Assembly: GCA_902556205.1 (NCBI GenBank)
Contig: CACDVH010000002.1
Span: forward strand, 124,001 to 188,000
Direction of reading: 5' to 3'
Source: an uncultured Gammaproteobacteria bacterium
GTDB lineage: Bacteria; Pseudomonadota; Gammaproteobacteria; PS1; Pseudothioglobaceae
Length of the DNA stretch: 64,000 bases
Part shown: positions 4,342 through 32,664 of the stretch, piece by piece
Layout: every line of letters begins with the position of its first letter
How positions within the stretch are numbered: position 1 is the stretch's first letter
Program-made: the position numbers and the translations under genes
The notes under the pieces: model-generated
What the model was told of the DNA's origin: nothing
The model's input: only the letters and a program-made list of their open reading frames with translations
The model's database searches: none

Positions 4342-4445
4342 TGTATCTAAAATTAATCATTTTCTACAAACTCCAAGAATTTTTGAGTTTTAGTACAGAG
4401 ATCCGTAAATTTGGACTTTAGTTCAAGTTGAAATATAATCCAATC

Positions 4446-6380
4446 ATGAAACTATCTTTATACCCAGACATAGTAAAAGATTGGCATCCAACTAAGAATG
4501 GAGAATTGACTCCTGATGATTTTACTCACGGTAGCCATACAAAAGTTTGGTGGAAGTGTCCAAAAGAATGCGATCATGAGTGGCATGCTCAAATAAATAG
4601 CAGAGTTAATGGGCGTGGATGTCCTTTTTGCTCAGGACACAAAGTTAGTCAATCAAATAGTTTTCTGATGAGATTTCCTAATATTGCTGCAGAATGGCAT
4701 CCTACCAACAATGGAGTTTTAAAACCAGAACAGTTTACTTCTGGGTCTGATAAAAAAGTATGGTGGAAGTGTCCAAAAGGAGATGACCACGAATGGGAAT
4801 CAATCATTGGCGATAGAAGTAGAGGTCATGGATGCCCATTTTGCGCTGGACAAAAAGTTAACAAATCAAATAGTTTTCTGGTGATGCATCCTAAGATTGC
4901 AGAAGAGTGGCATCCAACTAAAAATGGACTTTTAAAACCAGAGCAGTTTACTTCTGGTTCACAAAAAAAAGTATGGTGGAAGTGTCCTAAAGGCAATGAT
5001 CATGAATACCAGCAGATGATAAAACATAAAAGTAATAGTCATGGATGTCCTTTTTGCTCTGGAAAAAAAGTTAGTATGACAAATAATTTGCTAGCGGTTA
5101 ATCCAAAACTAGCAAGTGAATGGCATCCAACCAAAAATGAAGCTTTAAAACCAGAACAGTTTACATCTGGTGCTGGAAAAAAAGTATGGTGGAAGTGTCT
5201 AAAAGGGGATGACCATGAATGGGAAACATCTATTAAGCATAGAAGTAGTGGTAGAGGATGTCCTTTTTGCAGTGGAAAAAGACTAAGTATGACAAATAAT
5301 TTACTTGCAGTTAATCCAAAACTAGCGAGTGAATGGCATCCAACAAAAAATAATGATCTCAAGCCAGAACATTTTACTTCTGGAGTAAGTAAAAAAGTTT
5401 GGTGGCAATGTTCCAAAGTTGATGAGCACGAATGGCAAGCAAGAATCCTTAATAGGCACATTCAAGGAAATGGATGTCCTTTTTGTTCAGGGTCAGGAAC
5501 CTCTAAACCTGAAATTCGTATTCTTTCTGAGTTGAAATATTTATTTGGCTCTGAAATGGTTTTATGGAAGAGCAGAAAATATGGAATCGAGATAGATATT
5601 TTTATTAAAAAATATAATATCGGAATTGAATATGATGGTTCATACTGGCACAAGAAAAAGGTTCAGTCAGATACAGATAAAAATCAATTCTTTTCAAAAA
5701 AAGATATTGAGATAATAAGAGTTAGAGAGCGCCCTTTAAAAGTGATTTCAAAAAATGATTTGGTTGTATCAAGTAGATCTTTTACTAAGAATGACTTGAA
5801 TTCTCTAGTATTAAAAATAAAATCAATCATGATAAAACCAATAAAGATTGATTTTGAATCTTATATAGATAGTTCATCGTTCTGTAATAAAAAGGAGTTT
5901 AATAGATATATTAGCTACTTGCCATCGCCTCCACCAGAATTTTCTATTTTAAAAACTAATCCTGAAATCGCAGCTCAATGGCATTTTGATAAAAATAGTC
6001 CTCTTAAACCTGAAGACTTTACTCATGGCTCACATTCAAAAGTCTGGTGGAAATGCACTAAGGGAGATGATCATGAATGGAAGGCAATTATAAAAAATAG
6101 AATTCGAGGAGATGGTTGTCCCTTCTGTTCAGGAAGAAGAGCTCATAAGTCAAATAACTTTCTACTAAAGTGTCCAGCAATAGCAAGTGAATGGCATCCA
6201 ACAAAAAATAAAAATCTGAAACCAGACAACTTTACATTTAAGTCTAACAAAAAAGTCTGGTGGCAATGTCCCAAGCTGGATGAACACGAATGGCAAGCAA
6301 GAATAGCAGATAGGAGTGATGGTTCAAAATGCCCATATTGTTCAGGAACAAAAACTCTTAACTATGACTTATTTAAATAA
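4446..6380 (+). CDS. Zinc-ribbon repeat protein with an embedded PD-(D/E)XK (Vsr/DUF559-like) nuclease
   Basis: The ATG at 4446 opens just before the first repeat (a TTG at 4428 is possible), giving 644 residues. Seven repeats of about 70 residues match the probable zinc-ribbon family DUF4379 (PF14311): each has an EWHPTKN...LKPEQFT block, VWWKC, DHEW and GCPFCSG. Five precede and two follow a nuclease-like core (about residues 350-440) with E382, D384, E395, D397 and H402 in IEID and IEYDGSYWH, then RVRERPL. This resembles Vsr and DUF559 endonucleases. The zinc modules probably bind DNA. It is the main cargo of the tRNA-Arg element. Homing, defence and element maintenance are all possible roles; none is shown. 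Confidence 0.8.
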   Translation: MKLSLYPDIVKDWHPTKNGELTPDDFTHGSHTKVWWKCPKECDHEWHAQINSRVNGRGCPFCSGHKVSQSNSFLMRFPNIAAEWHPTNNGVLKPEQFTSGSDKKVWWKCPKGDDHEWESIIGDRSRGHGCPFCAGQKVNKSNSFLVMHPKIAEEWHPTKNGLLKPEQFTSGSQKKVWWKCPKGNDHEYQQMIKHKSNSHGCPFCSGKKVSMTNNLLAVNPKLASEWHPTKNEALKPEQFTSGAGKKVWWKCLKGDDHEWETSIKHRSSGRGCPFCSGKRLSMTNNLLAVNPKLASEWHPTKNNDLKPEHFTSGVSKKVWWQCSKVDEHEWQARILNRHIQGNGCPFCSGSGTSKPEIRILSELKYLFGSEMVLWKSRKYGIEIDIFIKKYNIGIEYDGSYWHKKKVQSDTDKNQFFSKKDIEIIRVRERPLKVISKNDLVVSSRSFTKNDLNSLVLKIKSIMIKPIKIDFESYIDSSSFCNKKEFNRYISYLPSPPPEFSILKTNPEIAAQWHFDKNSPLKPEDFTHGSHSKVWWKCTKGDDHEWKAIIKNRIRGDGCPFCSGRRAHKSNNFLLKCPAIASEWHPTKNKNLKPDNFTFKSNKKVWWQCPKLDEHEWQARIADRSDGSKCPYCSGTKTLNYDLFK

Positions 6381-30353: not shown

Positions 30354-32237
30354 TTAAGGCTTGAAATTAGAGGTCATAGGATATCTTCTCTCTCTTCCAA
30401 AGGCATTACTACTAACCTTAGGGCCAGGAGCGGATTGACGTCTTTTGTATTCATTCCTAAGAATTAAAGAGGTAATTTTTTTGACGTTTTCAGGGCTATG
30501 CCCATGTGCAATAATTTCACTAACAGATTGCTTCTCCTCAACAAATCTTTTTAAAATATCGTCCAATATGTCATAGGGTGGAAGAGAATCTTGATCGACC
30601 TGATCAGGAGCAAGTTCAGCAGAAGGAGGTCTAGTAATAACCCTTGATGGGATAACTTCTGATATCGTGTTACGATATTTAGACAGTTTATACACCATAC
30701 TCTTAGAAATATCTTTGAGTGGAGCAAAACCGCCACACATATCTCCATAGAGTGTGGCATAACCAACCGCCATTTCAGACTTATTTCCTGTGGCAAGGAC
30801 AATTTTATGATGTTTATTCGAAAGAGCCATCAGTAAAGTTCCTCTAACTCTAGACTGAATATTTTCTTCAGTAGTATCAACAGAATTGTTCTGAAAAAAA
30901 TCAGATAAAGAAGTATTAAAAGAATCAACCATATTATGAATGTCTATATTTGAAAAGTGGACACCTTGAGTTCTTGCTTGCATCTCAGAATCAGTCAAAC
31001 TAATTTCAGATGTATATTCATAAGGCATCATTACGGCATGAACATTCTCAGCACCGATTGCATCAACTGCTATAGCAAGAGTTAAAGCTGAATCAATGCC
31101 TCCAGATAATCCTATTAAAGCACCGCCAAAAGAATTTTTAGTAATATAGTCTCTAGTAGCTAATACAAGCGCCGAGTATATAGATGATTCATCACTAGTA
31201 AGCATTGGCTTTAATGAGGAATCATTATAAGAGAGTGAAACTTCTTCAAAAGCAGGCATTTCAAAAATTAACTCGCCTTGATTGTCAATAACAAATGAAT
31301 TTCCATCAAAAACAACCTCATCTTGCCCACCAACCATATTGATGTAAACAAAAGAAATACCAAACTCTAGAGAATATTTTTGGCAAATAGATACTCTTTC
31401 AGAGTGCTTATTAAGTTGAAAAGGCGATGCATTTATAGAAATGACCATATCAATATTTTCCCTACAAGCTTTCTTGATAGGGCCATCAACCCATTGATCC
31501 TCACAAATTAGAACTCCAATCTTAGTGTTTTGACAGTCAAAAGTTAAAGACTCATTACCGGAGGTAAAATAACGTTTTTCATCAAAAACACCATAGTTAG
31601 GCAGTTCTTGCTTGTTATAAATGTGTTGAATTTTATTTTCTTGAATTAAATAAGCACTGTTGTATAAACTTTTATCAATTTGACTAGGCGCCCCAAAAAG
31701 AACATAAATACTAAAGGGGACCGATTCAGATAAACGATTAATTTCTTTATTCACTTGATTGATAAATCCATCTCGCAACAATAGATCTTCTGGGGGGTAC
31801 CCGGTTAGAGCAAGCTCAGGAAAAACAATAAGATGTGCACCATTCTCACTTGCGGCGATAGACAATTCAATAATTTTATTAGCATTAGATTGAATATCTC
31901 CAACAATAGGGTTAATTTGGGCGATTTGGATTTTGATTGGTAATGATTCAGAAAATATTTTATCTAGTTGCTCTTGCCAGAATTTGGCCTTCAAATTATT
32001 TCCCGTTGAAATTGCATGCTCTAATTTAGTATTGGCAACAATTTCAGCAGGATCAATATCAAGTATATTAGCAAAAAGCCAGGCATGAGTTTCACTCAAA
32101 GCAGCCTTTCCAGAGCTATATTTACTAAGGTTAGATTGGTTTATCTCATATTCTTTAGAGATCTTATAATCAGAAAAACCAGTCTTATTTCGCACCATAG
32201 CAAGGTATTCAGTTGTTTTAATATGCATAGGCTTCAT
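30354..32237 (-). CDS. nadE: Glutamine-dependent NAD+ synthetase with a fused N-terminal helix-turn-helix domain
   Basis: 627 residues. From about residue 101 it is an ordinary NadE: nitrilase-type glutaminase with E141 (FPELALTGYPPEDLL), K209 (YNKQELPNYG) and C245 (LICEDQW), then the synthetase P-loop LSGGIDS (378-383). The first 95 residues are not part of NadE: TTEYLAMVRNKTGFSDYKISKEYEIN, NLSKYSSGKAALS, then ILDIDPAEIVA, followed by a helix with FWQEQL, match phage-related HTH proteins of the DUF3693 type. No start codon lies between the two parts, so this looks like a true fusion. An inverted repeat just upstream (32254-32289) may be its operator. Confidence 0.93.
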   Translation of the reverse strand: MKPMHIKTTEYLAMVRNKTGFSDYKISKEYEINQSNLSKYSSGKAALSETHAWLFANILDIDPAEIVANTKLEHAISTGNNLKAKFWQEQLDKIFSESLPIKIQIAQINPIVGDIQSNANKIIELSIAASENGAHLIVFPELALTGYPPEDLLLRDGFINQVNKEINRLSESVPFSIYVLFGAPSQIDKSLYNSAYLIQENKIQHIYNKQELPNYGVFDEKRYFTSGNESLTFDCQNTKIGVLICEDQWVDGPIKKACRENIDMVISINASPFQLNKHSERVSICQKYSLEFGISFVYINMVGGQDEVVFDGNSFVIDNQGELIFEMPAFEEVSLSYNDSSLKPMLTSDESSIYSALVLATRDYITKNSFGGALIGLSGGIDSALTLAIAVDAIGAENVHAVMMPYEYTSEISLTDSEMQARTQGVHFSNIDIHNMVDSFNTSLSDFFQNNSVDTTEENIQSRVRGTLLMALSNKHHKIVLATGNKSEMAVGYATLYGDMCGGFAPLKDISKSMVYKLSKYRNTISEVIPSRVITRPPSAELAPDQVDQDSLPPYDILDDILKRFVEEKQSVSEIIAHGHSPENVKKITSLILRNEYKRRQSAPGPKVSSNAFGRERRYPMTSNFKP

Positions 32238-32253
32238 TAATTAAACTCAATAT

Positions 32254-32289
32254 TAGTTATTTTATACCACTATAGGTAAAAAATAACTA
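32254..32289. promoter_or_regulatory. Near-perfect inverted repeat upstream of nadE, candidate operator
   Basis: The arms TAGTTATTTTATACC (32254-32268) and GGTAAAAAATAACTA (32275-32289) match at 14 of 15 positions around the 6-base centre ACTATA. On the minus strand it overlaps a possible -10 box (TATAAA) and ends 17 bases before the nadE ATG. A dimeric HTH protein bound here would block transcription; the HTH domain of NadE itself is the obvious candidate. The remaining gap to 32664 is AT-rich with no gene; a TATACT at 32635-32640 lies close to the aapJ ribosome site, without a convincing -35. Confidence 0.65.
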
Positions 32290-32664
32290 TATATTACTAA
32301 ATTGATACAGAAAAATACATGTAAGAAATACCTAAAATTAGTATAACTTATTGATTTAAATGAATAAAATACTATTATTTAATTATGTTTTAATTCTGAT
32401 ATTCTCTTAATTAATAGTGCTTTGATGACTAAAGATGATCTATATTAGTAGAATCGTTAGTTGAATTAAATTCAATTTTATATAAGTTCAAAACTACAAA
32501 TATATTGTATTAATGGGATTAAATTAAAAAAGAAGGTTGAATTGATTTAAATTATTTTTTTACAAATTAATTGGTATTCTTTATTGAACTAGTGATAAAA
32601 TTTCTCTAATCCTCATTCAATTGTGAAGGATTGTTATACTTTGAAACTCATTAAGGAGATATAT

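Follow-up and report, generated by a model that had tools for sequence, protein, structure and literature searches.

Four kinds of repressor of NAD genes, NadR, NiaR, NrtR and NadQ, are named in the introduction of a 2025 paper, which makes no mention there of a NadE fusion (PMC12421817). NadR of enteric bacteria combines a helix-turn-helix (HTH) domain with NMN adenylyltransferase and ribosylnicotinamide kinase; its N-terminal HTH represses NAD genes, the targets being nadB, nadA, pnuC and pncB, and NrtR, NiaR and NadQ are described as repressors of NAD genes too (PMC12421817). A further enzyme with an N-terminal HTH repressor is BirA, the group II biotin protein ligase. NrtR, NiaR and NadQ are, to our knowledge, not NadE fusions, and no HTH-NadE fusion was found described in the literature searched, which consisted of open-licence PMC articles and in which absence is no proof.

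Such a fusion is encoded in the genome of an uncultured gammaproteobacterium, within a stretch of 64,000 nucleotides that is referred to here as the window. Like NadR, the protein is an NAD-pathway enzyme with an N-terminal HTH; the enzyme is a different one, however, as the HTH is joined to NadE, which carries out the last step of NAD synthesis, and the conserved sites lie at nadE itself. The protein is thus not a NadR. In the window's genome no NadR match exceeds the cut-off, the profile TIGR01526 being matched over its first 69 positions only (20.9 bits versus 341), and the NrtR winged-helix family was not found. With BirA the protein shares the design of an enzyme preceded by an HTH, but the enzymes are unrelated and BirA acts on biotin synthesis and transport genes, whereas the presumptive target here is the protein's own gene. 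On sequence grounds, NadE-HTH would work in the manner of NadR and BirA while belonging to neither. The features of the fused protein are as follows.

30354..32237, minus strand: nadE with N-terminal HTH, a 627-residue fused protein with an ATG start (reading frame and domain searches)
31947..32228, minus strand: XRE/lambda-repressor-like HTH domain, residues 4-97 (domain searches and model)
32112..32138, minus strand: recognition helix, residues 34-42, QSNLSKYSS (helix 31-39 in the numbering of the model; near-invariance)
31236..31925, minus strand: glutaminase (CN_hydrolase) domain, residues 105-334 (Pfam; E141, K209 and C245 kept)
30435..31178, minus strand: NAD synthase (NAD_synthase) domain, residues 354-601 (Pfam; SGGIDS P-loop from residue 378)

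An earlier note, made from the letters of the DNA, had described a 627-residue frame in which an HTH is followed in frame by a full NadE, and this is borne out by the reading frame together with NF010588, Pfam and PHROG searches. Residues 101-626 score 738.9 bits with the profile NF010588 (NAD+ synthase, PRK13981; cut-off 479), which identifies this part of the protein as a complete glutamine-dependent NAD+ synthetase. No NAD synthetase besides the fused one was found in the window's genome (92% complete), where the second match is a CN-hydrolase-like stretch of 25% identity. A stop codon sits two codons ahead of the nadE ATG, with one codon between, and so precludes any upstream extension of the frame. 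No in-frame ATG, GTG or TTG occurs after residue 82 (itself a TTG) and before residue 125, and the synthetase, from about residue 101, therefore has no separate start codon where it would naturally begin, as the note had held in stating that no internal start codon separates the two parts.

The HTH-NadE fusion is real and is conserved across one gammaproteobacterial family, by record titles that of Ca. Thioglobus, SUP05 and mussel symbionts; titles include Ca. Thioglobus, SUP05, Bathymodiolus heckerae thiotrophic symbiont and Ca. Thiodubiliella. Since independent genomes from 11 genera share it, the fusion is no assembly artefact. Translation beginning near residue 100, or relatives with the HTH as a separate gene and the present frame a sequencing artefact, were the outcomes named beforehand as contrary to the fusion; the window shows no start codon near residue 100, and no family genome examined has the HTH and the synthetase as two intact genes. 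The family survey comprised 83 genomes, and an order-level search gave the same 83. NadE was detected at E<=1e-30 in 72 of them and the HTH in 71; in the remaining one, G003, the match (298-627) starts at base 1 of a contig, and the HTH is missing because the contig end cuts the gene. All 49 good-quality genomes (at least 90% complete, at most 5% contaminated) contain the HTH, including the draft G055, in which it is split over two reading frames. Among further drafts, G066, outside the 49, has a stop codon inside the HTH, and G023 and G049 show breaks in the synthetase part.

Beyond the family, the class survey covered 369 genomes, 4 of them family members, and the phylum survey 398, the window's genome being the only one seen from the family. 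Among the matches listed, which form part of either match table, no other NadE with this HTH was encountered; an unrelated HTH joined to NadE would escape such a search. Non-family NadE matches among those listed begin at query position 79 or later, the exceptions being G238, from position 59 (from 101 in a separate alignment), and G699 and G609, from 49 and 66, both of which are interrupted by internal stops. The HTH profile matched no NadE in the 365 non-family genomes of the class; outside the family it gave three weak matches in two class genomes (two in G086, one in G415), in short open frames of 94-126 residues.

The isolated N-terminus matches the PHROG family phrog_4441, 'HTH DNA binding protein' (protein 7-93, profile 4-88 of 98, E 3.3e-11), over a span that takes in the C-terminal tail of the HTH, and phrog_638 matches it as well. 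Of an N-terminal alignment of 27 members, one of them a stand-alone paralogue, all 27 match phrog_4441 and 25 match phrog_638, with the tail helix covered. The likeness to both families extends over nearly the whole N-terminal domain, tail helix included; they are phage protein families and not enzyme fusions, unlike NadE-HTH. A phage-type HTH complete with its C-terminal tail, as had been proposed, is thus what the PHROG match shows, covering most of the profile and the tail. The label DUF3693-like is not supported: Pfam DUF3693 is absent at E<=1 for the window protein and absent at E<=0.01 among the families matched by the 27 members. Pfam HTH_3 scores 21.6-21.8 bits on the window domain, just below its cut-off of 23, and is matched by 24 of the 27 members at E<=0.01 (best 1.2e-7).

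The model of the HTH has a pLDDT of 95.6 and displays six helices, the sixth being the C-terminal tail, and its Foldseek neighbours include lambda cI, ImmR, the C-protein C.AhdI and HigA, with weak E-values (best 0.11). Model and nearest folds (fold E at least 0.11) point to the lambda-repressor fold, from which the assignment of residues 34-42 as the predicted recognition helix follows. The full-length model is poorer (pLDDT 81) and no argument is drawn from it. Named matches of the HTH in the viral library are mostly HTH proteins and repressors, again weak (best 0.017). A close phage parent, or a recent capture, was rejected: no phage record matches the HTH by tblastn at E<=0.01, no viral contig encoding a relative was found, and one plasmid HTH gives a weak match at 30%. 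Since neither a tblastn phage match nor a viral contig with a relative turned up, any phage origin must be distant. Genome G044 encodes a stand-alone HTH paralogue of 84 residues (L115:4007-4261), 45% identical and directly upstream of a ribonucleotide-reductase-like gene (named by eye), with a one-mismatch operator-type site ahead of its own start; it is perhaps a relative of the domain's ancestor.

Conservation was assessed in 68 family proteins, which comprise those of 67 of the 71 genomes and one named record; G055 and G066, which are broken, and G068 and G074 were left out. The glutaminase residues E141 and K209 are present in 68/68 proteins, and C245 and S378 in 67/68, the remaining row having a gap there; these belong to the E-K-C glutaminase triad and the SGGxDS ATP loop. 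An independent start for the synthetase was rejected, as an in-frame start codon at residues 86-105 occurs in 5 of the 68 proteins and in none of the other 63. The HTH (7-66) is the most constrained part, with a mean entropy of 0.56 bits versus 1.20 in the glutaminase part and 0.73 in the synthetase part, and the linker 92-101 is loose at 1.68 bits. Seven putative contact positions within the recognition helix and at its beginning (33-36, 38, 39 and 42), presumed by analogy to lambda cI, average 0.016 bits, against 0.858 at 25 other polar HTH positions. So low a value is reached in 1e-5 of random draws among polar positions and in 1.1e-4 among all 60, figures that ignore phylogeny and serve as a guide only. 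Polar residues frozen on the predicted DNA-reading face are what would be expected of a DNA-binding protein with an unchanged target.

Candidate target sites lie directly upstream of the gene, where the following features were recognized.

32256..32268, minus strand: putative proximal operator O1, GGTATAAAATAAC (motif search and family conservation)
32269..32274, minus strand: TATAGT, a candidate -10 hexamer flanked by O1 and O2 (most other-genus regions have TATAAT at the equivalent position)
32275..32287, minus strand: putative operator O2, GTTATTTTTTACC, 19 bp from O1 (motif search and family conservation)
32320..32332, minus strand: distal operator-like site, GGTATTTCTTACA (two mismatches to the consensus)
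32344..32356, minus strand: IHF-like site, WATCAANNNNTTR (consensus match)

The operator consensus is the 13-bp pseudo-palindrome GKTAWWWWWTAMC, which was searched for up to 200 bp upstream of nadE in 69 regions. The palindrome pointed out beforehand at this locus proves to be family-wide: all 69 regions contain it within one mismatch, in one to four copies, and 65 of them in at least two, while an exact copy is present in 56 and lacking in 13. Sites within one mismatch average 2.74 per region versus 0.21 in first-order shuffles, and exact sites 1.41 versus 0.01; because the family sequences are related, such shuffles, like the random draws above, are guides and not probabilities. When the window is compared with same-genus relatives (20 comparisons), the operators show an identity of 0.93, versus 0.52 for the other upstream DNA and 0.44 for fourfold sites. 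A spacing of 19 bp occurs in 22 cases in the window's genus, other genera showing 4 cases of 19 bp and 14 of 20 bp, and a spacing of 36 bp recurs outside the window's genus (27 cases). The distal operator-like site is nearer to the consensus in same-genus relatives, at -104/-105. Four genomes of 1.0 Mb from one genus, G033, G034, G037 and G042, keep the fused HTH at lower profile scores (142-150 bits), and their operators tend to be weaker (L108, L109, L111, L113); this perhaps reflects relaxed regulation in symbionts, a trend that four genomes of a single genus render suggestive only.

The sites are closely associated with a presumed promoter. The sequence TAACTATAAT, in which an operator end abuts a TATAAT -10 element, is found in 40 of 47 other-genus regions versus 0.9% of shuffles, and all seven regions without it belong to genus g8. 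In the window's genus, represented by 22 regions of which one was assigned by similarity, the -10 elements are weaker: the hexamer is TATAGT in this frame in nine regions, and nine have TGTAGTGG (hexamer TGTAGT). A consensus promoter scan reported no promoter upstream of the window's nadE and did not call TATAGT. The IHF-like sequence WATCAANNNNTTR, which we take to be the IHF consensus, is present in exact form within 220 bp in 49 of the 69 regions versus 1.7% of shuffles, mostly 107-142 bp before the start. The upstream neighbour of nadE varies among 15 representative loci, being an amino-acid-binding protein, a Sel1-like gene, argF (on the same strand) or a hemH-like gene (named by eye). 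As the neighbours change and the sites stay, the operators go with nadE and not with the neighbouring gene.

Elsewhere in the genomes, the single site is not generally commoner than a reversed control: the window's genome has four exact GGTAWWWWWTAAC sites, including two at nadE, versus 15 occurrences of the control. What stands out, given this lack of general enrichment, is clustering at nadE: among the rows listed, 15 genomes have sites less than 120 bp apart, and in all 15 these lie at nadE (positions compared by hand). A regulon search in six genomes yielded 31 exact GGTAWWWWWTAAC sites, of which the 30 with loci were placed against open reading frames of at least 90 residues; nine lie at nadE, 13 inside a reading frame and eight in intergenic DNA, the last two groups making up the other 21. 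Two intergenic pairs are shared between genomes. The pair in G007 and G008 (L146 and L128, of the window's genus) is situated between a GntR-family regulator gene and a hexosaminidase-like gene (named by eye), in a stretch with conserved TTGGTAT-type repeats. These repeats beside the GntR-family gene led to this site being set aside as a NadE-HTH target; it is probably the GntR-type regulator's own operator. The site shared by G039 and G033 sits in a stretch that is 87% identical between both genomes. Among 47 upstream regions of nadE genes without the HTH, none has an exact site and one has a site within one mismatch, a control that is weak because the family's upstream DNA has 16-31% GC, a range shared by only one of the 47 (25% GC, no site). 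Genome G043 (genus g5) harbours 28 exact GGTAWWWWWTAAC sites, 14 per strand, compared with 2-7 in the other 11 genomes of its genus; the excess is possibly a repeated element.

An HTH joined to a complete enzyme, and operator-like sites at the promoter of that enzyme's gene, are the features expected of an autoregulatory enzyme, and NadE-HTH is accordingly likely, judged from sequence, to be bifunctional and to repress its own gene nadE. In the mechanism proposed, the N-terminal lambda-repressor-like domain would bind the 13-bp GKTAWWWWWTAMC pseudo-palindromes as a dimer, at operators that come in pairs, frequently spaced by 19-20 bp, on and next to the nadE promoter; binding at the operator pair would lower nadE transcription. 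Synthetases of the NadE type are oligomers, and oligomerization of the synthetase might supply the paired HTHs. The output would be homeostasis of NadE and hence of NAD. We infer binding of the sites, repression by binding and this output from the conserved sites and the frozen residues of the presumed DNA-reading face, which lend support to the proposal that the enzyme represses its own gene, raised in the earlier note along with the fusion, the phage-type HTH and the palindrome; the DUF3693 name in that note is not supported. Autorepression agrees with the position of the sites at the presumed promoter, with the type of fold and with the geometry of the sites. Counting against it are the 13 of 69 regions without an exact site, the weak -10 in the window's genus and the lack of a called promoter.

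Different roles for the domain or for the sites have to be weighed against autorepression. The HTH might be a structural or protein-interaction module with no part in DNA binding, as in HppE and MPnS: in these phosphonate enzymes the HTH fold is part of the enzyme, the HTH model matches MPnS chains (6b9s, 6b9t) in fold, and the domain is kept in the 1.0-Mb genomes G033, G034, G037 and G042, genomes of a size at which regulation is often lost. Such a module, however, would be under no need to keep the polar residues of its recognition helix frozen or to be accompanied by a conserved set of operators at its own gene, and this explanation appears very unlikely. It is just as improbable that the upstream sites are genuine but bound by a different regulator, with the fused HTH acting elsewhere. 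The assignment of the sites to NadE-HTH is deduced from sequence, and the genome contains further HTH genes, for instance at G000:C6, where the HTH part of the NadR profile gives a short match. Yet close pairs occur only at nadE among the rows listed, as would be expected if the regulator acts locally, and it is the fused HTH that is linked to nadE; in the window's genome the NrtR winged helix was not found and no NadR exceeds the cut-off, and sites are absent at nadE genes without the HTH save for one single-mismatch match, in a control weakened by GC content.

The least probable of these readings has NadE-HTH activating nadE or the upstream gene instead of repressing nadE. Lambda-type HTHs are able to activate, and the distal sites and the IHF-like site lie upstream of the promoter, but the proximal sites abut or flank the presumed -10 region, a position typical of a repressor, and the upstream gene differs between genera, with argF on the same strand in one. 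Autorepression of nadE thus stays the preferred reading, and a simple concentration-dependent form of it would explain everything seen. If autoregulation is right, the prospect that occupancy by substrate or product (NaAD, ATP, NAD+) alters DNA binding is slightly less than even. More doubtful, and put forward tentatively, is the complete scheme in which NAD status is sensed by way of the synthetase's own catalytic cycle: occupancy by NaAD/ATP or NAD+ would shift the spacing of the paired HTHs, and the enzyme would so gate its own promoter; in that version IHF perhaps bends the upstream DNA.

Should autoregulation hold, a regulator would be placed on the last step of NAD synthesis, and SUP05, Thioglobus and their mussel-symbiont kin would possess a route of NAD control in a setting where, as far as the window's genome is concerned, neither the NrtR winged helix nor a NadR above the cut-off was found. 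The NAD-sensing version, if true, would add a further kind of NAD regulator, with homeostasis achieved through one self-reading enzyme. The locus would also provide a compact example of a housekeeping enzyme that has captured a phage-type repressor domain along with the operators of that domain.

Elsewhere in the window, positions 4428-6380 encode a 650-residue protein with many repeated WWKCP...HEW units that, by eye, resemble zinc ribbons.
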